Part shown: positions 51,829 to 62,729 of the stretch, in pieces
Numbering within the stretch: position 1 is the stretch's first letter
Layout: the number at the start of each line of letters is the position of its first letter
From: an uncultured Verrucomicrobia subdivision 3 bacterium
Lineage (GTDB): Bacteria; Verrucomicrobiota; Verrucomicrobiia; Limisphaerales; UBA11358
NCBI GenBank assembly: GCA_903895255.1
Contig: CAITTG010000125.1
Span: forward strand, 1-64,000
Direction: 5' to 3'
DNA: 64,000 nt
The notes under the pieces: model-generated
The model's input: the letters and a program-made list of their open reading frames with translations, nothing else
What the model was told of the DNA's origin: nothing
The model's database searches: none
Made by a program: the position numbers and the translations under genes

Positions 51829-54507
51829 TCATCCACCCAGCTTGTGGTTAATCGCCGCCAAATCATTCCCCTTGGGCATGATGAACAACCCCTTGCCCCC
51901 GCTCCGGCTTTCCCAGACCGCGCCCACCAATCGCTTATCCTCGGCATCGGCATACAAGTGATCGCCTTTGTATTCCACGACCAGCACTCGACCGTCGTGG
52001 AGGAGGCAGACGAAGTCGGGATAAAACCAGTCGGTCGCAGTTTGCAGGCGGAAGGAAGAGCTTTTGCGCGCCAGATTGCGCACCCAGAACTTCACTTCCG
52101 GCAAGCCGTCGAGGTATTGCGCACATTTAAATTCCTCCGTTGGCTTGCCACTGGCCGTCTTTTCGTACAGTTCACCGGGTTTGGTTCCGAAATAATGCTT
52201 TTCAAACTTAAAGCCGCCCTCGTAAACCCGGCTCGGCTCGTAGCTCATCGTCTTGAAATTGAGCACCCGTTCCTCACTCACCGTCAACGGGGAGCCAGGG
52301 AGTAAAAATTCCTGGAAGGCGGTTTTGATTTCCGCATTCCGGTGGGCCTGGATGCGCTGCTCCACCTCATCCCGCAGCCGGAACCGGTCCAGCCCGAGCA
52401 ACCCCACGTCGGTAATGCCATGTTTCGCCTGGAGTCCCCGGATGACCTTGGCCAGAAATTCCGCCGATTCCCCAGCGGGAATGTCCTGATGATCAATCTG
52501 CCGGTCCAGCCACGCCACCAGGCTTTCCAGCGTCCAATCGGTGGTGCCGCTCAGGGCAAAAACCTGCTGGTGCAGGGTGGTGATGAAGTCATGCGCCGCC
52601 GTTTCCTCCAACAGTTTCGATTCCACCTGTCCGCGCGTGCCCACATTCAGTTCCCCGGCTTTGCCCAGGGGACGTTTCAAGGGATTGTAGTCGGCGTTGA
52701 GGGTCGCGTCTTTGGCCCCCAATTTCCACGGATGTTCCAGCAAAAACGTGCGCTCGAATTCAAACAGCAGCCCGTCCTCCCGCACGCAGAGCAGCGGGAC
52801 CATGAAATCCAACTGCCGTTCATAAGGCGAAGGTTCCCGGGTTTGACCACTCCCGCCAAAGGCCTTCTCCGCCGCGCGCACCAACTCCACCGTGGCCTGC
52901 ACTTTCGCCCGGGCCTCGGGCGTCTTCACGCAACTGGCCAGCTTTTCCGACTCCTGTTTGTCCAAGGGCACCAGCACGGTGATTTCCCCCTTGGCGGTGT
53001 CAATGCGCGCCTTGCCCGCCAGCGCCAGTTCCTGCACCTGGGCCACCGCCCCATCAATCTCCGCCGGCGCCACCTGCACCGTCCGGGGTTGCGCCCCCAG
53101 CGGCAGCGCGCCTTGGGAAATGGGAATGATAATCCGCTCCGCCTCGGCTGCCGTAAACCCATTGCTTTCCAGCGCCTCCCGCAACTCGGCCAGCACCTCC
53201 GTGATCGAGTCCGAAACCGAGAAGGCATAGGCGCAATTCAGGTCCGGATGCTGCTTCTCCCGGGCATTGGGCAGGCGCAGAATGCGGCCAACAATTTGCT
53301 CGATGGCCGTGGCCGACCGCGTTTCCTTCAAGCTGCACAACACATAGGCAAAGGGACAATCCCAGCCCTCCCGCAATTTTTGCACCGTGATGATAATCCG
53401 CACCGCCGGTTCTTTGGCCGACCGGATGTCTTCCGCACTCGGGAGTTCATCCTGCGCCCCCACGGATATTTTAATCTGTTCCCGGGCAATGCCGAATTCG
53501 GCCACCAACCGTTCGCGCAAGGGTTCGCAGTCACTCACCCGTTCGGCCTGGAGCAAAATAATGGGCCGGATGTACTCACCGGTTTGTTGAGTTTCAGCCA
53601 ATGCCAGCTTTTCCAAATCGGCGCGCAGAGTGATGGCTTCCGCCAGTAATTGCTGCTTTTGGCTGGGATGCCGGGTAATCACGCGCAAAGGCAGTTTGAC
53701 CATTTGCGCCGCCTTCAATTCCGCCGCCGAAACGTGGTGCAGCACATTGGACGGATTTTTCGTCCGGGCCGGGGTGGCCGTGAATTCCACAATGCAGGAC
53801 GGCAGCACATTCCCCAGCGTGGCAAAGCTCAAATCCGTCCGGGCGTTATGGGCCTCGTCCACAATCACCACCGGCCGGCGCAGCCGGAGCATGTTCACCA
53901 GGGAGGGCTTGGGCTTGCCATCCGCCCCCGGCAGCAATTCCGCCAGCCGGTCTGCCGGCACATTCAACAAATGCTCGGCAAACGCGCCATTCTGGTCATA
54001 GACCTTGCGCCCGGTGGTGTCCTCCACCCGGAACGCCTGGATCGTGGCCACAATGACCACGGTTTGCCCCTCCACCGTCGCCCGCGACAGCCGCAAGGCC
54101 TCTTCAATCGTCACCACCTCCACCGCCCCGCACGCCAGTTCCAGCGCCCGCCGGTAGGCATGGCGGGGATCGCGCAAGGCGTCCGCCGTCTGGTCGAGAA
54201 TCGTGTTGCTCGGCACCAACCAGAGCACCACCGCCCGGTCCGCCCGCAGCAATTCCGTGATCGCCAGCCCCGCCGTGTAACAGGCGAGCAGGGTTTTCCC
54301 CCCGCCCGTCGGCACCCGCAAACACACGTAGGGCATGCCCGGGGTGAGGCCCGTCGCCACCACCGGCAAATAGGGCACGGCGGGCAGGGAATTACCGGCC
54401 AGCACCGCCCGGTAGGCCTCCTCCGGCCGGCCATCCCGGGACGTTTGCCGGAAAAAATCCCGCAGCGAATCCAGCACCCGCTCTTGATAGTTTTTAAGTG
54501 CGATCAT
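51829..54507 (-). CDS. res: Type III restriction endonuclease subunit Res-like helicase-nuclease
   Basis: An 892-aa protein. SF2 motifs: Q-region MIALKNYQERVLDSL, Walker A VPTGGGKTLLA (residues 65-75), DEAH in VVIVDEAHNARTD (about 213-221), TATP in FTATPAR (about 237), and motif VI in EQIVGRILRLPN (about 408). The C-terminal nuclease candidate is WFYPDFVCLLHDGRVLVVEY then KGDHL (about 828-850), a PD-(D/E)xK pattern as in type III Res proteins. It would cut DNA after translocation when partner Mod sites are unmodified. It lies downstream of mod, with two small genes between. Confidence 0.92.
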   Translation of the reverse strand: MIALKNYQERVLDSLRDFFRQTSRDGRPEEAYRAVLAGNSLPAVPYLPVVATGLTPGMPYVCLRVPTGGGKTLLACYTAGLAITELLRADRAVVLWLVPSNTILDQTADALRDPRHAYRRALELACGAVEVVTIEEALRLSRATVEGQTVVIVATIQAFRVEDTTGRKVYDQNGAFAEHLLNVPADRLAELLPGADGKPKPSLVNMLRLRRPVVIVDEAHNARTDLSFATLGNVLPSCIVEFTATPARTKNPSNVLHHVSAAELKAAQMVKLPLRVITRHPSQKQQLLAEAITLRADLEKLALAETQQTGEYIRPIILLQAERVSDCEPLRERLVAEFGIAREQIKISVGAQDELPSAEDIRSAKEPAVRIIITVQKLREGWDCPFAYVLCSLKETRSATAIEQIVGRILRLPNAREKQHPDLNCAYAFSVSDSITEVLAELREALESNGFTAAEAERIIIPISQGALPLGAQPRTVQVAPAEIDGAVAQVQELALAGKARIDTAKGEITVLVPLDKQESEKLASCVKTPEARAKVQATVELVRAAEKAFGGSGQTREPSPYERQLDFMVPLLCVREDGLLFEFERTFLLEHPWKLGAKDATLNADYNPLKRPLGKAGELNVGTRGQVESKLLEETAAHDFITTLHQQVFALSGTTDWTLESLVAWLDRQIDHQDIPAGESAEFLAKVIRGLQAKHGITDVGLLGLDRFRLRDEVEQRIQAHRNAEIKTAFQEFLLPGSPLTVSEERVLNFKTMSYEPSRVYEGGFKFEKHYFGTKPGELYEKTASGKPTEEFKCAQYLDGLPEVKFWVRNLARKSSSFRLQTATDWFYPDFVCLLHDGRVLVVEYKGDHLYADAEDKRLVGAVWESRSGGKGLFIMPKGNDLAAINHKLGG

Positions 54508-55046
54508 TCGGGGTTGGGGTTAAAACCCTTGATGCGGCGGCGTGGCTCCAGGAGCGGTTCGGGTGCCGGTGCCAGCAGCGGTTGCAGTTTTTTCCAGATC
54601 ATGCTCAAGGCCGCGTCCTGTTGCAGTAGCGTCTTGTCAATCTCCGCCAGTCGTTTGAGGATGGCCGAGTTGGCCGCCAGATGCTCGCGCATTTGCAGGA
54701 ATGCCCGCACCACAAACACACTCATGGCCACCGCTTCCGGACTGTTCAAAACCGTCGCCGCCATGATCGCGCCGTGCTCGGTGAAGGCATGGGGCAACTT
54801 GCGACGGCCACCGTGGGAATTGCTTGCGGCCACACTTGAAGTCACAATTTGTGACTTCAAGTTTTCCCACTCCACCGCCGTGAGTTGTATGTGGAAATCC
54901 GCCGGGAAACGCTCAGCGTTGCGTTTGATGGCTTGGTTAAATACCTTCGTCGGCACGCCATAAAGTTCTGCCAGATCGGCATCCAAAATAACCTTCTGCT
55001 GGCGCAGGTTGAATATTAACGACTCAATTGGCTTTTTCGGTTTCAT
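54504..55046 (-). CDS. ORF6N-domain protein
   Basis: A 180-aa protein. Residues about 8-90 match the ORF6N domain: LIFNLRQQKVILDADLAELY, VFNQAIKRNAERFPADFHIQ, LPHAFTEHGAIMAATVLNSP. The domain is DNA-binding and known from phage antirepressors and bacterial accessory genes. The C-terminal third has a coiled-coil-like segment (AILKRLAEIDKTLLQQDAAL) and a Pro/Arg-rich tail. It overlaps the res start by 4 bp, so it is made from the same transcript; a regulatory role in the cassette is inferred. Confidence 0.88.
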   Translation of the reverse strand: MKPKKPIESLIFNLRQQKVILDADLAELYGVPTKVFNQAIKRNAERFPADFHIQLTAVEWENLKSQIVTSSVAASNSHGGRRKLPHAFTEHGAIMAATVLNSPEAVAMSVFVVRAFLQMREHLAANSAILKRLAEIDKTLLQQDAALSMIWKKLQPLLAPAPEPLLEPRRRIKGFNPNPE

Positions 55047-55052
55047 GTGGTT

Positions 55053-55265
55053 TTATGGCTTTGGATAGGCAAATCCGATGGCCCGCGCCTCACGACCTTC
55101 CCGCTCTGCCGCCTGCCAGTCCAGCGCATCCAAAACCGACTCTGGCAGGGATGAATCCGTTTCCAGCAAACGTCGAAGTTCCCGTTTGTGCTGGTAAAGG
55201 CGCCACACCGCCTCATTTTCATTGTTTCGGCGCGCCAGTTCCTGGGGATCCATCATCGCTTTCAT
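55053..55265 (-). CDS. Small protein between mod and ORF6N gene
   Basis: A 70-aa charged protein (ELARRNNENEAVWRLYQHKR, LLETDSSLPESVLDALDW), predicted all-helical, no known family. It overlaps the mod stop by 4 bp (ATGA) and ends 6 bp before the ORF6N start, so it belongs to the restriction-modification operon. Start ATG 55265; the ATG pair near 55256 is an alternative. Confidence 0.68.
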   Translation of the reverse strand: MKAMMDPQELARRNNENEAVWRLYQHKRELRRLLETDSSLPESVLDALDWQAAEREGREARAIGFAYPKP

Positions 55266-56932
55266 GACACTTTGATTTCGTAGGGGGTTTGCCGCACAAC
55301 AATCCGCTCCGCCTGCAACCGGTCCTTGCCCAGCAGGCAGCCCGCGCAATAAATGACCTTTTGCCCGTCAAAGGCCGGCAATTGCGCCAGCACCGCCCGG
55401 GTGAGGATGTTGCCGCCACTGGCGCTTTTATCGCCCAAAATGCCGTTGAACAACAGATAAATCCCCACCCCGCGACACACCCCCAACAAAGGAGACCATT
55501 TCTTGGTAGCAGCCGACGTGAGGAGGCTCTGATTGTCTGTTCCGCCCGGATTTGAAGTGAACCTCCTCACGTCGACTGCTACGAGATCCGGCAGGGGTTC
55601 GCCGGTTTCCGTGAAATAAACGTGCCGGGCCAGGTCCGCAAATCGCACGGTTGCCTTGATTTGTCCATGCTCGTCAAACAACGGCTCGCCCAGTTCGCAA
55701 AAGCGGAAACCGCCGCCCAAGCCTTCAACTTTCTCGCCTTTAGCGTTGGTGTAACCCTGCGCGACGCGCTTGACGCGCTCAGCGGTGATGTCACGGGCAA
55801 TTTTTGGCTCCATTTCCACGAGGATGAAACGGCGGTTACCGCTATCTTCTGCGTTTTGCTTAAGAACCGCATGGGCAGTCGTGCCACTACCAGCAAAAGA
55901 GTCGAGAACAATTGCCCCTGGAGGAGCACAGTAATCAATGACCCGTTGAATAACGGAAACGGGTTTTGGAAATGCAAAAACTCGCTCCACAAGAATATCG
56001 TCAAGATCACGAGCCCCCGACAATGTTTTGAATTCATCCCAAAACGAGGACGCTGGCATTCTTACTTTAGCCTCTGATAAAAAACGCTTTTTGCGCGGTT
56101 TTCCGCTCTTTGGGCTTTGTGGCCACCAAATTCGATTTTCTTCCAAAAGCTTTTTGTATCCTGTTTCATCCGTGATCCATCCATATGCAGGGTCTGGTCC
56201 CCACACTTTATTTGTCTCGGGCTGAATCATACTGTAAGCATGAAGATTAGGGCGCGCGTCAGCCGTGGCCTTACCTGTGAGAGGATCTGTAACGTAAGGG
56301 CCGCGTGGATCATTGTCAGGATTTTTAAAATCGCTCCGGTCAATAACTCGCCCTTCGATCCGTGAGTTGGCTGATTTGCCGTAAACCAGGATGTACTCGT
56401 GGTCTGGCGACAGATGAGTTTTAATCCGGTTATCCGTGTTTCGTGTATTCCAGACTATGGTTCCTAATGCATTTGCTTTGCCGAATATCTCATCAAGCAT
56501 GAGCTTTAAGAAACCAAGCTCGACCTCGTCAAGTGAAACGAGAATCACCCCATCATCACTGAGAAATTGCCGAAGCAAAGCCAGCCGTGGATACATCATG
56601 CAAAGCCATTTATCATGGCGGGAGAGGTCTTCGGCCTCCTTGCCCACGGCTTTGCCCAGCCATTCCTTGATGAGTGGGCTGTTCACGTTATCGTTGTAAA
56701 CCCAGCCCTCGTTGCCCGTGTTGTACGGGGGATCAATATAGATGCATTTGACCTGGCCGGCGTAATAGGGGAGCAGGGCCTTGAGCGCCACCAGATTGTC
56801 CCCCTGCACGATCAAATTGCCGCTGCCGGGGTCGCCCACGGCCAGTTCCGGCACGTCCTTGAGCAGCCGGAACGGCACGGCATGGTGATGGTTCACCACG
56901 GTTTCCTTCCCTATCCAGTTCAGTGTCGGCAT
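55262..56932 (-). CDS. mod: Type III-like DNA adenine-N6 methyltransferase Mod
   Basis: A 556-aa beta-class methyltransferase. Catalytic motif IV IDPPYNTGNEGWVYND (about residues 66-81) precedes SAM motif I LDSFAGSGTTAHAVL (about 340-354), the order of type III Mod and related N6-adenine enzymes. HDKWLCMMYPRLALLRQFLS lies between. Residues about 451-476 are encoded by a 77-bp palindromic element (55506-55582) kept in frame. First gene of mod-small ORF-ORF6N-res. ATG 56932; the open frame to 56971 is non-conserved. The central region 55.8-56.5 kb is less GC-rich than its surroundings, consistent with transfer of the cassette. Confidence 0.92.
   Translation of the reverse strand: MPTLNWIGKETVVNHHHAVPFRLLKDVPELAVGDPGSGNLIVQGDNLVALKALLPYYAGQVKCIYIDPPYNTGNEGWVYNDNVNSPLIKEWLGKAVGKEAEDLSRHDKWLCMMYPRLALLRQFLSDDGVILVSLDEVELGFLKLMLDEIFGKANALGTIVWNTRNTDNRIKTHLSPDHEYILVYGKSANSRIEGRVIDRSDFKNPDNDPRGPYVTDPLTGKATADARPNLHAYSMIQPETNKVWGPDPAYGWITDETGYKKLLEENRIWWPQSPKSGKPRKKRFLSEAKVRMPASSFWDEFKTLSGARDLDDILVERVFAFPKPVSVIQRVIDYCAPPGAIVLDSFAGSGTTAHAVLKQNAEDSGNRRFILVEMEPKIARDITAERVKRVAQGYTNAKGEKVEGLGGGFRFCELGEPLFDEHGQIKATVRFADLARHVYFTETGEPLPDLVAVDVRRFTSNPGGTDNQSLLTSAATKKWSPLLGVCRGVGIYLLFNGILGDKSASGGNILTRAVLAQLPAFDGQKVIYCAGCLLGKDRLQAERIVVRQTPYEIKVS
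55506..55582. repeat. Palindromic element inside mod reading frame (family D)
   Basis: 21-bp arms (GTAGCAGCCGACGTGAGGAG+G at 55506-55526, inverse at 55562-55582, one mismatch) flank a 35-bp loop. On the coding strand it is translated without a stop as AVDVRRFTSNPGGTDNQSLL then TSAAT. Confidence 0.88.
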
Positions 56933-57035
56933 GTAATGTGTCGTCCATCGTAGGCCAACCCCGGCCCGCAATCAAACCAAAGCCGGCCAGGGCGCCTACA
57001 TTTTAGTGGTAAGGGACTTCAAGCAAGCCTCTTAA

Positions 57036-57088: not shown

Positions 57089-57210
57089 TACACTCGTCCC
57101 CGATGATCGTGCCCCTGCCATCATGTCGCCGCCGCCCGGCCCGCCGCCGGACGTCCAAACCCGCCTGCCCAAAGGCCGCCGGCCAAAACCCCAGACCTCA
57201 GTCAACCTCA

Positions 57211-57250
57211 CATCAGACTACATCCGGGTACATCCGGCCACATCCGGCCA
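57211..57250. repeat. Four 10-bp tandem units upstream of the DUF2760 operon
   Basis: CATCAGACTA, CATCCGGGTA, CATCCGGCCA, CATCCGGCCA in direct succession: about one helical turn per unit, 164-204 bp before the DUF2760 start. It could be a phased protein-binding array or slippage product. Confidence 0.6.
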
Positions 57251-57413
57251 ATAAAAAAATTCCACCCCATTCAGGTCAGGCGGGTGATTCGTGGGCAAAA
57301 GTTATGAATGCCGCCCCCCAAGGCCAAATCTTGAAGATTCGCGAACATTTATCCCCCGCCCGAAATCAAATTTGCCCTTTATCCTTAAAAACGGCATAAT
57401 CACCCCGAATTTT

Positions 57414-57971
57414 ATGGAGCAACCCATCCCATCAAAAGCATCGTTCGGACAGCGGCTGGCCACCGGGCTGGCCTGTTTTACGCGCGCCCTCGGCAGTCCG
57501 GAGTTCTGCCGCCAGGCCGCCGCCCTGCTGCAACCCGCTCCCGCCCCGGCCGCCCCTGTGGCAGCCAAACCCGTTGAACTCCCCCCGGAACGCCGCCACG
57601 CCGCCGGCCTGGCCGTCCTCGCCCTCCTCCAGCGCGAGGGCCGGCTCATTGATTTTCTGCAAGAAGACATGGCCGCCTACTCCGATGCCGAAATCGGCGG
57701 CGCCGCCCGCGTCGTCCACGCCGGCTGCCGCAAAGTCCTCGCCGACCAGCTCACCCTCGAACCCGTGCTCAAGGAAGCCGAGGGCGCCGCCATCACAGTG
57801 CCCGCCGGCTTCGACGCCCAGCGCATCCGCCTCACCGGCAACCTCGCCGGCCAGCCGCCCTTCAGCGGCACCCTCAAGCACCACGGCTGGCTCGCGACTT
57901 CCGTCCGCCTGCCCACCGTCTCCGAAACCCTCGACCCACGCGTCCTTGCCCCCGCCGAAGTCGAGTTGTAA
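57414..57971 (+). CDS. DUF2760-domain protein
   Basis: A 185-aa protein, ATG 57414 (MEQPIPSK). The DUF2760 core covers about residues 55-185: LAVLALLQREGRLIDFLQED, YSDAEIGGAARVVHAGCRK and the C-terminal FSGTLKHHGWLATSVRLP. An Ala/Pro-rich linker (PAPAPAAPVAAKP) precedes it. DUF2760 genes typically stand just before Hsp70-like genes, as here (22 bp to the next start), which suggests a partner or adaptor of that chaperone. Biochemical role unknown. Confidence 0.88.
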   Translation: MEQPIPSKASFGQRLATGLACFTRALGSPEFCRQAAALLQPAPAPAAPVAAKPVELPPERRHAAGLAVLALLQREGRLIDFLQEDMAAYSDAEIGGAARVVHAGCRKVLADQLTLEPVLKEAEGAAITVPAGFDAQRIRLTGNLAGQPPFSGTLKHHGWLATSVRLPTVSETLDPRVLAPAEVEL

Positions 57972-57993
57972 TCCCATATTAAAGCCCTGCCTC

Positions 57994-59829
57994 ATGTCCA
58001 CCTATTCCATCGGGATTGACCTCGGCACCACGAACAGCGCGGTCTCGTATTTCAAACTCGCCGACGCCACCGCGCGCGGCCAGGCCCAGACCATGCTGGC
58101 CATTCCGCAAGTAACGGCCGTGGGCACCGTCGGGGAAAAGCTGTTGCTGCCTTCGTTCCTTTATTTGCCCAACGCCGCCGAATTCCCCGCCGGCTCGCTC
58201 GCGCTGCCGTGGGATAAAAACCCGGCCAGCGTGGTCGGCGAATTCGCCCGCGCCCACGGCAGCAAAGTCCCCATGCGCCTCGTCGCCTCCGCCAAAAGCT
58301 GGCTCTGCCACGCCGGCGTGGACCGCCAGGCCGCCATCCTGCCCTGGCAGGCGCCCGAGGATGTGCAACGCATTTCCCCGCTGGCCGCCGCGGCGCAGTA
58401 CCTGGGCCATTTGCGCGCCGCTTGGGATCACCAATTCCCGAATGATCCGCTCGCTCAACAAGACGTGGTGCTCACTGTGCCCGCGTCCTTTGACGCCGCC
58501 GCGCGCGACCTTACCTTGAAAGCCGCGCAAGACGCCGGCCTGCCCAACGTCACCCTCATCGAAGAGCCCCAGGCTGCCTTCTATGCCTGGCTGGAACAAA
58601 TGGGCGAAGGCTTTCGCAAAGTCGTCAAACCCGGCGACGTCGTGCTGGTCGTGGATGTCGGCGGCGGCACCACGGATTTTTCGCTCATCGCGGTGACGGC
58701 CAAGGACGGCGACGTGGCCCTCACCCGCGTGGCCGTGGGTGATCACATTTTATTGGGGGGCGACAACATGGACCTCGCGCTCGCGCACACAGTGAACCAG
58801 CGCCTCACCGCCGCCGGCAAAAAACTGGATGCCTGGCAGTTCAACGCCCTCACCCACGCCTGCCGTCAGGCCAAGGAAACGCTCTTTGCCGATCCCGCGC
58901 TCAATCAATGTCCGCTCGTGGTCCCCGGTCGCGGTTCCTCGCTCATCGGCGGCACGATCAAGGCCGAGCTGAGCCGCGAAGAGTTGACCCGCGTCCTCAC
59001 CGATGGCTTTTTCCCCAAAGTCGCCGTGACCGATCTGCCCCAGAGCACCCGCCGCACCGGTCTGGCACAAATGGCCCTGCCCTACGCCCAGGACGCCGGC
59101 GTCACGCGGCACCTCGCCGCCTTCCTCACCCGTCAAGCCCGCGCCATGGCCGCCGCCCACGATGCCCCGGTGCCGGTGACCGGGCGCACCTTCGTCCACC
59201 CCACGGCGGTTTTGTTCAACGGCGGCGCCTTCAAAGCCAGCCCGCTCAAGGAACGCGTGCTGGAAGTGTTAAACACCTGGCTCGCCGCCGATGGCGGCCA
59301 GCCCGTCAAGGAATTGGAAGGCGCGGAACTGGACCTCGCCGTCGCGCGCGGCGCGGCTTACTACGGCTGGGTGCGCCACGGCCACGGCCTGCGCATCCGG
59401 GGCGGCACCGCCCGCGCTTATTATGTGGGCATTGAAACGGCAATGCCCGCCGTGCCCGGCATGGAACCGCCCGTGAAAGCCCTGTGCGTTGCGCCCTTCG
59501 GCATGGAGGAAGGCACCCAGGCCGACGTGCCGCCGCAGGAATTTGGCCTGGTGGTCGGCGAGCCCACGAGCTTTCGCTTCTTCGCCAGCTCCGTGCGCCG
59601 CGACGACCGCGTCGGCACCATGCTGGACGACGTGGCCGGCAACGATGAACTCGAGGAAGTCGCGCCCATCGAAACCACCCTCATTGCCCAGGTGGTCCAG
59701 GAAGGCAAACTCATCCCGGTGAATTTGCAGGCCCTGGTCACGGAAATCGGCACCCTGGAATTGCGCTGCCTGGAAAAAGGCGGCCCCGGCCAGTGGAAGC
59801 TGGAGCTCAACGTGCGGATGAAAGAGTAG
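57994..59829 (+). CDS. Hsp70-family (DnaK-like) protein, first paralogue
   Basis: A 611-aa protein. Actin-fold ATPase motifs: phosphate-1 GIDLGTTNSAVSY (about residues 7-19), VLTVPASFDAAARDLTLKAA, EEPQAAFYAWL, phosphate-2 LVVDVGGGTTDFSLI (about 218-232) and adenosine motif LFNGGAFKASPLKERVLEVL (about 407-426). The nucleotide-binding domain carries long insertions (about 470 aa), and the C-terminal part (about 490-611) is only weakly like the DnaK beta-sandwich and lacks the helical lid and EEVD-type tail. It belongs to the divergent Hsp70 group found with DUF2760. Middle gene of a three-gene operon. Confidence 0.92.
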   Translation: MSTYSIGIDLGTTNSAVSYFKLADATARGQAQTMLAIPQVTAVGTVGEKLLLPSFLYLPNAAEFPAGSLALPWDKNPASVVGEFARAHGSKVPMRLVASAKSWLCHAGVDRQAAILPWQAPEDVQRISPLAAAAQYLGHLRAAWDHQFPNDPLAQQDVVLTVPASFDAAARDLTLKAAQDAGLPNVTLIEEPQAAFYAWLEQMGEGFRKVVKPGDVVLVVDVGGGTTDFSLIAVTAKDGDVALTRVAVGDHILLGGDNMDLALAHTVNQRLTAAGKKLDAWQFNALTHACRQAKETLFADPALNQCPLVVPGRGSSLIGGTIKAELSREELTRVLTDGFFPKVAVTDLPQSTRRTGLAQMALPYAQDAGVTRHLAAFLTRQARAMAAAHDAPVPVTGRTFVHPTAVLFNGGAFKASPLKERVLEVLNTWLAADGGQPVKELEGAELDLAVARGAAYYGWVRHGHGLRIRGGTARAYYVGIETAMPAVPGMEPPVKALCVAPFGMEEGTQADVPPQEFGLVVGEPTSFRFFASSVRRDDRVGTMLDDVAGNDELEEVAPIETTLIAQVVQEGKLIPVNLQALVTEIGTLELRCLEKGGPGQWKLELNVRMKE

Positions 59830-59849
59830 CGCGGCCGCCGCGCCTGAGC

Positions 59850-62645
59850 ATGTCCCTCCCCGCCTACATAATCGGCATCGACCTGGGCACGACGAATTGC
59901 GCGGTCGCCTATGTGGATCCGGCGCAGGGGGTGGACGCGCCGATTCGGGATTTCCCCATTCCCCAACTCCAGCAACCGGGCCAGGTCGCGGCGCTGCCCT
60001 TGCTGCCCTCCTGCCTCTACCTGCCCGGCGAGCACGAACTGCCCCCCGGCTCCACGAAATTGCCCTGGGGCGAATCACCCGGCTCCATCGTGGGCGCCTT
60101 TGCCCGCTGGCAGGGTGCGCGGGTGCCCGGGCGCCTGGTGGCCTCCGCCAAAAGCTGGCTGTGTCACCCGGGCGTGGACCGTTCCGCGCCCATCCTGCCG
60201 TGGGGCGCCCCGTCCGAAATCGCCAAAATCTCCCCGGTCGAAGCCTCCGCCCGGTTGCTGGGCCATCTGGCCGCCGCGTGGAACGCCGCGCATCCCGAGG
60301 CCCCGCTCGCCCAACAGGAAGTGGTGGTCACTGTGCCCGCCTCATTCGACGAAGTCGCCCGCGCGCTCACGGTGCAGGCGGCCAAGACCGCCGGGCTGGA
60401 AAAACTCACCCTCGTCGAGGAACCGCAGGCCGCGTTCTACGATTTCACCGCGCACCACCGCCATGACCTGGCCGAGGTGCTGCAAGAAATTCGGCTGGTG
60501 CTGGTGGTGGATGTGGGCGGCGGCACCACTGATTTCACGCTCATACAAACGGGCGTCACCGCCGGCGGCCCGGTCCTGCGGCGCATCGCGGTGGGCGACC
60601 ACCTGATGCTCGGCGGCGACAACATGGACGCCGCGCTCGCCCGGCATCTGGAGGAACGGTTGCTCGCCGATGGCCGCAAACTCAGCGCCACGCAATGGAA
60701 CCAGCTCGTGCAGGCCGCGCGCGCTGCCAAGGAAGCGCTGCTCGGCCCGGACGCTCCCGAACGTCAGGGCATCTCCATCCTGGCTGAAGGCAGCCGGTTA
60801 ATGCGCGGCACCCTCTCCGCCGACCTGTCCCGCGCGGAGGCCGTGCGGTTGATTCTCGACGGTTTCTTTCCCGCGTGCTCACCCGGGGAAACCCCGCGCC
60901 GCGCCGCCCGCACCGCCTTGCAGGAACTCGGCCTGCCCTACGCCCAGGACCCGGGGATCACCCGGCATCTGGCCGCCTTTTTGCGCCAGCACGCGGCCGC
61001 CGCCTTTGCCGCGCTCCAGCAGGAAGCCCGCCCGCCCGCCCTGCCCCGCCCCGACGCGATCTTGTTCAACGGCGGCGTGTTTAATTCGCCCCAAATCACC
61101 GAACGCCTGCTCGCCCTCGTTTCCACCTGGTGGCCGGACGCGCCGACCCTCCAGGTGCTACCCCATGACTCACTCGAAGCCGCCGTCGCGCGCGGCGCGG
61201 CGGGTTACGGCCTGGCCCGGCGCGGCTTGGCCCGGCGCATCAGTGGCGGCGCGGCGCACGCCTTGTATGTGGGTTTGGCCGCGGACAAGGACACCGCCGC
61301 CCCCCGCGCCATCTGCTTGATCCCGCGCGGTCACGAAGAAGGCCAGCCGGTGGAACTCCGGAGCCAGCCATTCGCACTAGTGCTGGGCCGGCCAGTGCAA
61401 TTCCCGCTCCACTCCACCAACGCCGACCGCCCCGACCGCCCCGGCGACATCGTGGAACTTCCGGCCGATGGCGAGGAATTTCGCGCGCTGCCGCCGATTC
61501 ATACGGTATTCAAAGCCACCGGCCACCGCACCGGCAGCGTGCCGGTTTACCTGAGCGCCAGCCTGACGGAATTGGGCACGCTGGAATTATGGTGCGTGGC
61601 GGCCAGCCACGACGAGCGCTGGCGGCTGGAATTTGAACTGCGCGGCACGGCTGTTTCCAGCACCACCACCGTCACCGAATCCATGCCCGCCCGGTTCGAC
61701 GAAGTGCGCGCGCTGGTACAGCGGGTCTTTGGCAACCAGCCCTTGCCCGTGGAGGCGCGCGAAGTGCGGCAGCTTCCGCGCACGCTGGAAAAATCCCTCG
61801 GACCGCGCGCGACCTGGCGGCTGCCCTGGCTGCGTGAACTCTGGAGCATCCTGCACGCCGGGGCCACCCGCCGTTTGCGCTCGCCGGATCATGAACGCGT
61901 GTTCTTTCAGCTTACCGGCTACAGTTTGCGCCCGGGCTTTGGCTATCCGCTGGACGAATGGCGTTGCGAGCAGAGTTTCCGTCTGCTTCGCGACTTGGTT
62001 AAACACCACCCGGAACAACCCCTCTGGAGCGAGTTCTGGGTGATGTGGCGGCGGCTCGCGGGCGGTTTGGATGAGGCCCGGCAAAAAGAACTCTGGGAGT
62101 ATCTCAAGCCGCACCTGGCCCGCCGGATTCCCTTGGAAGGCCCCAAAGACATCGTCCGCCCCAAAGGCATCCAGCCGGAGGGCTTGGACGAAATGGTCCG
62201 CGTGGCCGCGTCCCTCGAACATCTGGAGGTGGCGGATAAAATCCTGCTGGGCCAGTGGCTGGGCTCACGCTTAAAAACCCTGGAAACCGCCGCCGGACCG
62301 TGGGTCTGGGCGCTGGGCCGGCTGGGGGCGCGCGTGCCGGTGTATGGCAGCAGCCATAAAACCGTGCCGCCCGAAACCGCAGCAGCCTGGCTGGCCGGCC
62401 TGCTCGATGCGGGGTTGCTGCGGTTGGATGGCGCGACCTTTGCCATCGTGCAACTCGCCCGCCTGACCGGCGACCGCACGCGTGATCTGGATGAGCCCAC
62501 GCGCATCCGCGCTGTCGCCGCGCTGACCGAGGCGGGCGCACCGGCCAAATGGGTGCGCCTGCTCCAGGAAGTCGTGGCCCTGGAGACCGAGGACGAAGCG
62601 CGCGCGCTGGGCGACACCCTGCCGATCGGCCTACGGTTGAAATGA
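59850..62645 (+). CDS. Hsp70-family protein with DUF3731-like C-terminal extension, second paralogue
   Basis: A 931-aa protein. The first 600 residues parallel the preceding gene: IIGIDLGTTNCAVAYVDP, SAKSWLCHPGVDR, VVDVGGGTTDFTLI (about 218), LFNGGVFNSPQITERLLALV (about 404). The remaining 330 residues (FQLTGYSLRPGFGYPLDEWR, LWSEFWVMWRRLAGGLD, GPWVWALGRLGARVPVYGS) form the DUF3731-type helical extension of long Hsp70 homologues. The two Hsp70 genes probably arose by duplication and work together with DUF2760. Start ATG 59850 is 20 bp past the previous stop; the open frame from 59793 overlaps it. Confidence 0.92.
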   Translation: MSLPAYIIGIDLGTTNCAVAYVDPAQGVDAPIRDFPIPQLQQPGQVAALPLLPSCLYLPGEHELPPGSTKLPWGESPGSIVGAFARWQGARVPGRLVASAKSWLCHPGVDRSAPILPWGAPSEIAKISPVEASARLLGHLAAAWNAAHPEAPLAQQEVVVTVPASFDEVARALTVQAAKTAGLEKLTLVEEPQAAFYDFTAHHRHDLAEVLQEIRLVLVVDVGGGTTDFTLIQTGVTAGGPVLRRIAVGDHLMLGGDNMDAALARHLEERLLADGRKLSATQWNQLVQAARAAKEALLGPDAPERQGISILAEGSRLMRGTLSADLSRAEAVRLILDGFFPACSPGETPRRAARTALQELGLPYAQDPGITRHLAAFLRQHAAAAFAALQQEARPPALPRPDAILFNGGVFNSPQITERLLALVSTWWPDAPTLQVLPHDSLEAAVARGAAGYGLARRGLARRISGGAAHALYVGLAADKDTAAPRAICLIPRGHEEGQPVELRSQPFALVLGRPVQFPLHSTNADRPDRPGDIVELPADGEEFRALPPIHTVFKATGHRTGSVPVYLSASLTELGTLELWCVAASHDERWRLEFELRGTAVSSTTTVTESMPARFDEVRALVQRVFGNQPLPVEAREVRQLPRTLEKSLGPRATWRLPWLRELWSILHAGATRRLRSPDHERVFFQLTGYSLRPGFGYPLDEWRCEQSFRLLRDLVKHHPEQPLWSEFWVMWRRLAGGLDEARQKELWEYLKPHLARRIPLEGPKDIVRPKGIQPEGLDEMVRVAASLEHLEVADKILLGQWLGSRLKTLETAAGPWVWALGRLGARVPVYGSSHKTVPPETAAAWLAGLLDAGLLRLDGATFAIVQLARLTGDRTRDLDEPTRIRAVAALTEAGAPAKWVRLLQEVVALETEDEARALGDTLPIGLRLK

Positions 62646-62675: not shown

Positions 62676-62711
62676 CAAAAAAAACGGCGGCGGAACGAGT
62701 CCACCGCCGTT
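62676..62711 (-). terminator. Rho-independent terminator of phosphofructokinase
   Basis: Stem AACGGCGGCGG (62683-62693) and CCACCGCCGTT (62701-62711), one mismatch, 7-nt loop. On the minus strand a run of eight T residues follows, 18 bp past the pfk stop. It lies between convergent genes and could also slow transcription of the Hsp70 operon. Confidence 0.85.
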
Positions 62712-62729
62712 CGGGAAAAAAACCGCCGG

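Follow-up and report, generated by a model that had tools for sequence, protein, structure and literature searches.

A DUF2760 protein co-inherited with two divergent Hsp70s may be the dedicated partner of a lidless and lid-replaced chaperone pair

The window analyzed here, a stretch of 64,000 nucleotides from an uncultured Verrucomicrobia subdivision 3 bacterium, carries consecutive genes for a DUF2760 protein (D) and two Hsp70 proteins (Hsp70A and Hsp70B) whose partnership is well supported. Direct observations are the order of the genes, their joint occurrence also where they are unlinked, the domain composition of the proteins, their ATPase motifs and their altered docking sites. The explanation that we favor, with about as much confidence as doubt, is that Hsp70A and Hsp70B constitute an obligate Hsp70 pair that works as one machine with D, which would be a dedicated non-J cofactor rather than a client; we also infer a physical complex of the three proteins, a pairing of Hsp70A with Hsp70B and a working cycle.

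The genes for D (185 aa, 57414..57971; PF10816 match of 172 bits, cut-off 25), Hsp70A (611 aa, 57994..59829) and Hsp70B (931 aa, 59850..62645) lie on the forward strand with spacers of 22 and 20 bp, exactly as in the single operon that the initial annotation had described. Shortly upstream of the D start codon, a weak sigma70-like promoter match (9/12, 57372..57400, forward strand) was the only one in the region, where shuffled sequences gave 0.6. Sigma32-like heat-shock promoters were not enriched upstream of D, with 0 of 59 upstream regions matching the consensus with ≤2 mismatches compared to 1.7 expected from simple shuffles. Between Hsp70B and a convergent gene for a PPi-dependent phosphofructokinase, we found a terminator-like hairpin of 13 pairs followed by a T run (62682..62712, reverse strand), which has the longest stem of the 10 such hairpins in the region (7.1 expected). 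Next to the operon, the opposite strand encodes a type III Mod/Res pair and an ORF6N protein.

Of 387 genomes surveyed in the phylum to which the window belongs, 57 contain D, 56 Hsp70A and 58 Hsp70B, and 54 of the 59 genomes with any of these genes had all three (Fisher p = 5e-64 for D and Hsp70B, uncorrected for kinship). Four incomplete sets came from fragmented assemblies (D and Hsp70A without Hsp70B in G375, Hsp70A and Hsp70B without D in G369, D and Hsp70B without Hsp70A in G348 and G419), and D without Hsp70A or Hsp70B was not found in any near-complete genome. In 16 genomes whose loci were retrieved, the genes lay apart among unrelated neighbors and all three were still kept; the layouts were D-A with a separate B (6 genomes), D with a separate A-B (5) and all three separate (5), the last including a one-contig genome with the three genes at 4.16, 2.10 and 3.90 Mb. 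Since the three genes are kept or lost together even when far apart, their distribution points to one obligate chaperone machine.

The D-A-B gene order is conserved far beyond chance. Among the best 80 named-genome loci, Hsp70A directly followed D in 78, and Hsp70B came next in 62, one of which (L032) is broken. Median spacers over the complete triples were -1 and 4 bp, and the D stop and Hsp70A start overlapped by 4 bases in 32 of 65. We predicted that genomes with D or D-A but no adjoining Hsp70B would encode DUF3731 elsewhere, and this was found in 9 of 10 named-genome records and absent in one; at locus L104, a HEAT-repeat protein follows D-A and the same genome has Hsp70B elsewhere. The distance matrices of the three proteins correlated at 0.94-0.96 (n = 61).

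Both Hsp70A and Hsp70B belong to the Hsp70 superfamily, with an actin-like nucleotide-binding domain (NBD) and the DLGT, catalytic lysine, E-P and GGGT motifs. Their PF00012 matches (68.7 bits at residues 6-335 of Hsp70A and 69.6 bits in Hsp70B) are far below the 887 bits of the same genome's DnaK, so they were correctly called divergent, and the two form a clade that is apart and distant from DnaK. Their ATPase motifs are intact, as had been claimed: GGGTxD and KSW, which contains the lysine equivalent to K70, occur in 77/77 Hsp70A and 65/65 Hsp70B sequences, and GIDLGT in 73/77 and 50/65, some of the others being GIDLGS-type or trimmed (in all such motif counts, loci L013 and L033 are one contig entered twice). 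In the AlphaFold2 model of Hsp70B (mean pLDDT 84.4), residues 3-598 aligned to the NBD and SBD-beta of DnaK (7kru_A, Z 35.0 over 468 residues; 4jn4_A, Z 32.6 over 474 residues). The NBD spans about residues 1-460 (59850..61229, forward strand; VIA Z 34.0 to the DnaK NBD 7rax over 367 residues), and the model strands of about residues 467-595 (61248..61634, forward strand) predict a sandwich that aligns with the SBD-beta of DnaK and BiP. Hsp70A aligns with Hsp70B along its whole length, and by this homology it probably has an SBD-beta as well.

The canonical alpha-helical lid (SBD-alpha) is absent from both proteins. Hsp70A ends at SBD-beta: in 71 of 77 sequences only 2-9 aa follow the final strand motif (64 aa in one; motif absent in 5). 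Hsp70B instead carries the extension of some 330 residues that had been noted earlier, at about residues 612-931, most of which is DUF3731 (PF12531, 282.6 bits; residues 678-930, 61881..62639, forward strand), a domain modeled as all helical (helices within 616-919) at the lid position. The C-terminal regions, atypical according to the initial annotation, are so only in part: the lid is missing, and the modeled SBD-beta of Hsp70B is DnaK-like.

The site where J-domains dock is altered in both proteins. EEPQAA replaces the NEPTAA of DnaK in 75/77 Hsp70A and 64/65 Hsp70B sequences, the remaining three being EEPQSA or EEPQA-like; NEPTAA itself was found in 0/77 and 0/65, compared to 7/7 comparison Hsp70s. 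The docking arginine, which we take to be R167 in E. coli DnaK numbering, is an arginine in 3/77 Hsp70A (threonine in 63/77) and in 29/65 Hsp70B sequences, so Hsp70B could still meet a J-protein. No DVLLLD-type interdomain linker was detected in 77 Hsp70A or 65 Hsp70B sequences, using a regular expression that detects 4 of the 7 comparison Hsp70s (LLLD is visible by alignment in 6). Consistent with the earlier observation that no DnaJ or GrpE gene is adjacent here, searches of 125 loci with the genome's own DnaJ and GrpE proteins gave 0 matches beside the D-A-B genes, with a control recovering paralogs at 34% identity. Elsewhere in the genome there are three DnaJ-family and three GrpE matches, which could act in trans. 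Taken together, the near-perfect co-occurrence even when unlinked, the lack of DnaJ and GrpE at these loci and the partial loss of the J-docking signature strongly support the self-contained unit proposed in the initial annotation, and the machine probably works without the usual Hsp70 partners.

Its further proposal, DUF2760 acting in place of the J-domain or exchange factor, is possible, but the protein may just as well be a client, a tether or a substitute for the lid. The HPD motif is absent from D (0/86 sequences), and DUF2760 was its sole Pfam family above cut-off, with no match to DnaJ or GrpE; a Pfam VacA2 match (E 0.076, below cut-off) and RecA matches in a PDB sequence search (E 1e-4, 0 stretches passing) were taken as chance. 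The AlphaFold2 model of D (mean pLDDT 93.4) comprises a helical N-terminus (residues 11-39), a helical core (58-112) and beta hairpins (113-164). No convincing known fold was found for it (best Foldseek PDB E 0.64, VIA Z 4.1, viral library E 0.19), and no J-domain, GrpE or BAG fold was among the matches listed from these searches. The C-terminal AEVEL is near-invariant (96/109 by pattern, with near variants in 12 more); we considered it as a docking tail and dropped this idea, since the model is highly confident up to the C-terminus, which argues against a free tail, and the last codons overlap the Hsp70A start in many Proteobacteria.

We therefore weighed other roles for D. It is conceivable, if unlikely, that D is the client of a dedicated assembly pair, with Hsp70A and Hsp70B folding or loading a protein that does the real work, for example at the membrane. 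Client-specific Hsp70s exist, for instance HscA with IscU, and strict conservation of the invariant polar residues of D (Q73, R77, D80, D91, R99, H156 and G158-W159, over 61 or 27 sequences) would fit such a client, as would the strongly hydrophobic N-terminal stretch upstream of the core in 10/110 D proteins and the membrane zinc protease that adjoins D in split genomes (Zn_peptidase_2 in G168, G276 and G317, M50 in G296, with G279 and G402 added on sequence similarity). However, two Hsp70s would be lavish for a single 185-aa client, no near-complete genome was found to have D without Hsp70A or Hsp70B, and the absent lid and altered J-site demand a substitute. That D is this substitute in the narrow sense of a detached lid, supplying in trans the helical cover that Hsp70A lacks, seems improbable. 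Hsp70A does stop at SBD-beta, the core of D is helical and about lid-sized, and the mortalin lid (residues 569-625) was the sole Hsp70 entry among the fold matches listed for D, but this match does not rise above noise (E 3.4 in Foldseek; Z 2.4 in VIA, with an rmsd of 5.4 over 55 residues).

We also doubt, to a considerable degree, that Hsp70A and Hsp70B are ordinary accessory Hsp70s served in trans by the DnaJ and GrpE encoded elsewhere in the genome, with D an unrelated small fellow traveler. The J-site arginine retained in some Hsp70B sequences would suit this possibility, whereas the N-to-E and T-to-Q changes at the J contact in almost all Hsp70A and Hsp70B, the missing DVLLLD linker and the co-occurrence of D with both proteins even when unlinked speak against it. 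On plasmid pTs485, D-A lies among genes annotated as anti-phage. This setting and the restriction-modification genes beside the operon in the window would fit a defense island to which the operon belongs, a reading that we consider highly improbable because the operon flanks vary between genomes and no PADLOC family had more than 2 members among 138 neighboring proteins at E 1e-10, leaving no recurring defense family at the other loci. These 138 were taken from 154 ORFs, chosen roughly by third-position GC in GC-rich DNA, after leaving out 16 edge, short or Hsp70A/B-piece ORFs. Among six local proteins, PADLOC gave only weak PDC-M61B matches, to Hsp70A (4e-8) and Hsp70B (5e-4). The same neighbors included no fourth conserved partner, and the commonest families (DTW 9, Radical_SAM 8 and HepT-like 7 of 138) look like synteny internal to Oxalobacteraceae.

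According to current descriptions, ATP hydrolysis by known Hsp70 chaperones has to be driven by a J-protein. In the cofactor model that we favor, Hsp70A and Hsp70B may derive from one ancient Hsp70 lineage remote from DnaK and would act as an ATPase pair, one lidless and the other with helical DUF3731 in place of the lid, while D would stand in for J-protein and GrpE as their dedicated partner. D could bind the lidless substrate domain, the altered J-site or both, and would gate nucleotide and client turnover, much as the Zuo1 N-terminus completes the lidless Ssz1. We tentatively suggest that DUF2760 is the first member of a new class of Hsp70 cofactors, distinct from J-proteins and from the known exchange factors, and that Verrucomicrobiota, Myxococcota and many Proteobacteria might thus carry, beside DnaK/DnaJ/GrpE, a second complete Hsp70 machine with a different cycle. 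A widespread Hsp70 pair gave up its lid, the standard linker and part of the J-docking site, kept its ATPase motifs and is inherited together with a single small, uncharacterized protein. Should D run the cycle, Hsp70 control would exist in a second form, and two Pfam families of unknown function would gain functions.

The Hsp70B ortholog in Myxococcus xanthus is probably MXAN_5323, given that this protein has 925 aa (PMC8265645), that Hsp70B of four Myxococcus loci has 924-925 aa and that DUF3731 is encoded exactly once in every one of 27 genomes of the genus Myxococcus. The initial annotation had suggested a heat phenotype for a deletion; deletion of MXAN_5323 instead reduced sporulation and oxidative resistance (PMC8265645). 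The machine would then probably serve proteostasis in oxidative stress or sporulation and development rather than in general heat shock, which holds only if Hsp70B is MXAN_5323. Since a strain lacking the probable Hsp70B is already available in M. xanthus, the system can be tested directly in this species, as well as in Burkholderiales, for example Massilia or Comamonas.

Compared to the canonical DnaK/DnaJ/GrpE system, the Hsp70A/B system shares the NBD and SBD-beta folds and the ATP-site motifs but differs in its lidless Hsp70A, the DUF3731 of Hsp70B, the lack of a DVLLLD linker, EEPQ in place of NEPT, the absence of DnaJ/GrpE neighbors and its separate, distant clade. Hsp110 and Hsp70, which form an exchange pair, are likewise diverged Hsp70s, and the C-terminal part of one of the two is enlarged; by Pfam, DUF3731 is not an Hsp110 lid. 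In the main texts of the open-access literature, our searches returned no paper on DUF2760, DUF3731, PF12531 or PF10816 and none on the combination of noncanonical Hsp70, lid and operon, with nothing on the D-A-B trio among the matches listed. MXAN_5323 was treated as a lone Hsp70, and the words "operon" and "DUF" are absent from the main text of that report (PMC8265645). CsdK1 and CsdK2 of M. xanthus are also two non-canonical Hsp70s in one pathway, but they are described as PilZ-DnaK fusions that are redundant with each other, with linkers that are conserved, locus tags far apart and no DUF2760 (PMC10313047). In the fungal ribosome-associated complex, the lidless Hsp70 Ssz1 is completed by the N-terminus of Zuo1 (PMC7083937). 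At the sequence level D was not found to be related to Zuo1, which is a J-protein whereas D has no HPD, and Ssz1 is described as unable to hydrolyze ATP whereas Hsp70A and Hsp70B keep the catalytic motifs (PMC7083937). Nevertheless, Ssz1-Zuo1 with Ssb resembles D, Hsp70A and Hsp70B in having three partners, two of them Hsp70s, of which one is lidless and has a non-standard linker (PMC7083937).

The window encodes a DUF2760 protein (D; 185 aa, 57414-57971), an Hsp70 (A; 611 aa, 57994-59829) and a second Hsp70 whose last third is DUF3731, a helical family standing where an Hsp70 lid would be (B; 931 aa, 59850-62645). All three genes lie on the plus strand (57414-62645) with gaps of 22 and 20 bp, confirming the initial annotation's description of a DUF2760 gene and two divergent Hsp70 genes. 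A terminator-like hairpin and a convergent PPi-dependent phosphofructokinase gene follow, while a divergent type III restriction-modification pair lies upstream (51829-56971, minus strand; Mod at 55262-56971 and Res at 51829-54507, with an ORF6N-domain protein at 54504-55046). About 165 bp upstream of D, four tandem 10-mers at 57210-57249 (ACATCAGACT ACATCCGGGT ACATCCGGCC ACATCCGGCC) may mark a regulator site or be the scar of a repeat. In the plasmid records examined, the trio has no annotation beyond DUF2760 and Hsp70 family protein, and no paper naming DUF2760 or DUF3731 was found in the open-access literature searched.

The strongest result is the near-complete co-occurrence of D, A and B, which points to an obligate partnership. 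We searched 387 genomes of the window's phylum three times, for D, for DUF3731 as a marker of B, and for A-type Hsp70s (E 1e-70 or better, with A and B told apart by place), taking the genomes to be the same across searches from equal counts and handles. D was present in 57 genomes, DUF3731 in 58 and A-type Hsp70 in 56; all three occurred in 54 and any of them in 59 (Fisher values ~1e-62, kinship ignored). The full set was broken in G375 (no B), G369 (no D), and G348 and G419 (no A), and G212 had B only as a 117-aa fragment; completeness was below 90% in G375, G348 and G419 but not in G369, an assembly of 610 contigs, or G212. The genes were also all-or-none inside mixed families.

Linkage cannot explain this co-occurrence because the genes are kept together even where unlinked. 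D and B lay within 8 kb in 27 of the 56 genomes having both, 258 and 913 kb apart on one contig in two, and on different contigs in 27. Since assembly breaks may account for some of the latter, both loci were examined in 16 such genomes: six had D-A apart from B, five had D apart from A-B, and five had all three separate, including a one-contig genome with D at 4.16, A at 2.10 and B at 3.90 Mb. In another genome (G317), D and B were on opposite strands with ~1.1 kb between them, and A was located elsewhere. As co-retention predicts, DUF3731 was found elsewhere in the genome for 9/10 named records without B beside D(-A). In the genus Myxococcus, DUF3731 occurred in 27/27 genomes and DUF2760 in 26/27. 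The initial annotation's interpretation of a self-contained chaperone complex, with D replacing the J-domain or exchange factor, is therefore supported in part, namely as to the three-gene unit. At one locus (L104:4783-5661), a HEAT-repeat protein follows D-A in B's usual place; B lies on a different contig of that genome.

When a six-sequence D alignment was searched against named genomes, at least 371 relatives were confirmed. Among the best 80 are, by record title, members of Verrucomicrobiota, Lentisphaerae, Myxococcota, Burkholderiales and Competibacteraceae. Among these 80 loci, A directly followed D in 78 and B came next in 62 (one of them broken). In two further loci B lay at a distance of 2.2 or 6.7 kb. 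The sequence of the remaining 16 contained no B; roughly nine of these stop close to A or D. Across the 65 triples that were complete, from 64 distinct contigs, the median gaps were -1 and 4 bp, and D and A overlapped by four bases in 32. Within the window's genus the operon is patchy (2/36 genomes). D matched 11 plasmid records, and two megaplasmid or plasmid records, one a conjugative Bradyrhizobium plasmid, carry D-A-B or just D-A as cargo. On plasmid pTs485 (Candidatus Thiodictyon), the genes around D-A carry anti-phage, VapC and TIR annotations. A contig filed under Deltaproteobacteria encodes D, A and B 74-87% identical to the window's Verrucomicrobiota-like proteins, reflecting either recent transfer or misbinning. 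In a Verrucomicrobiales MAG (L032:9531-16523), the A gene is interrupted, and ~2.2 kb separates two pieces of B.

A quick tree grouped A and B in a single clade, remote from the seven DnaK-type sequences included (SH-aLRT 100); the stem measured 3.26 changes per site to each side of the root. A occupied one side of a branch with support 93, and B was not resolved as a clade. Both keep the catalytic motifs, in agreement with the intact ATPase motifs originally claimed. A ends after the substrate-binding sandwich (SBD-beta). The B model (mean pLDDT 84) arranges its nucleotide-binding domain and SBD-beta as in DnaK (Z 33-35 over 465-474 residues), although this fold search barely tests the DUF3731 part, which is all-helical in the model.

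The D model combines a helical core with beta hairpins (pLDDT 93, pTM 0.66), and structure searches returned no convincing fold match for it. The D N-terminus varies; in 10 of 110 D proteins its hydrophobicity would suffice for a membrane segment, so that D may, judging from sequence, be membrane-anchored in some lineages. Outside the operon, D adjoins a Zn_peptidase_2 membrane zinc protease at three loci (in G168, G276 and G317), an M50 peptidase at one (in G296) and, by sequence likeness, a membrane zinc protease at two others (L218 and L233). A link between D and membrane protein quality control is possible.

The parsimonious reading is that D, A and B constitute a three-part Hsp70 machine, for which we infer D binding, A:B pairing and a chaperone cycle. 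Alternatively, D could be a client of the two Hsp70s, or a detached lid, or A and B could use DnaJ in trans. Apart from D-A-B, the window's genome is normal in Hsp70 terms: it has a canonical DnaK (887 bits), contigs C131 and C129 carry, respectively, a second DnaK-like gene and a 47-bit Hsp70-like match, and there are three matches each to DnaJ and GrpE elsewhere. Against the use of DnaJ in trans, A and B have EEPQ where the J-domain contact of DnaK has NEPT, and DVLLLD was not found in the linker of either; however, the J-site arginine is retained in 29/65 B and 3/77 A proteins, which counts against a clean loss of J-docking.

A possible role comes from Myxococcus xanthus MXAN_5323, which is probably B because B is 924-925 aa in four Myxococcus loci and is the single DUF3731 gene of its genome. 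The available text of one study (PMC8265645) describes MXAN_5323 as an Hsp70 of 925 aa that falls outside the DnaK superfamily and is induced by H2O2, whose deletion mutant is viable with lowered sporulation and oxidative resistance, and which did not rescue E. coli dnaK at 37 C. The same text reports no obvious heat induction by qPCR, while its RNA-seq exempts MXAN_5323 from "unchanged or decreased".

The best solved analogy to D-A-B is Ssz1-Zuo1. According to the available text of PMC7083937, Ssz1 lacks a lid and has a detached linker, and the Zuo1 N-terminus completes its SBD-beta while also offering an inbuilt low-affinity substrate. By analogy, D could complete A as Zuo1 completes Ssz1, and B could act as a second ATPase or exchange partner.
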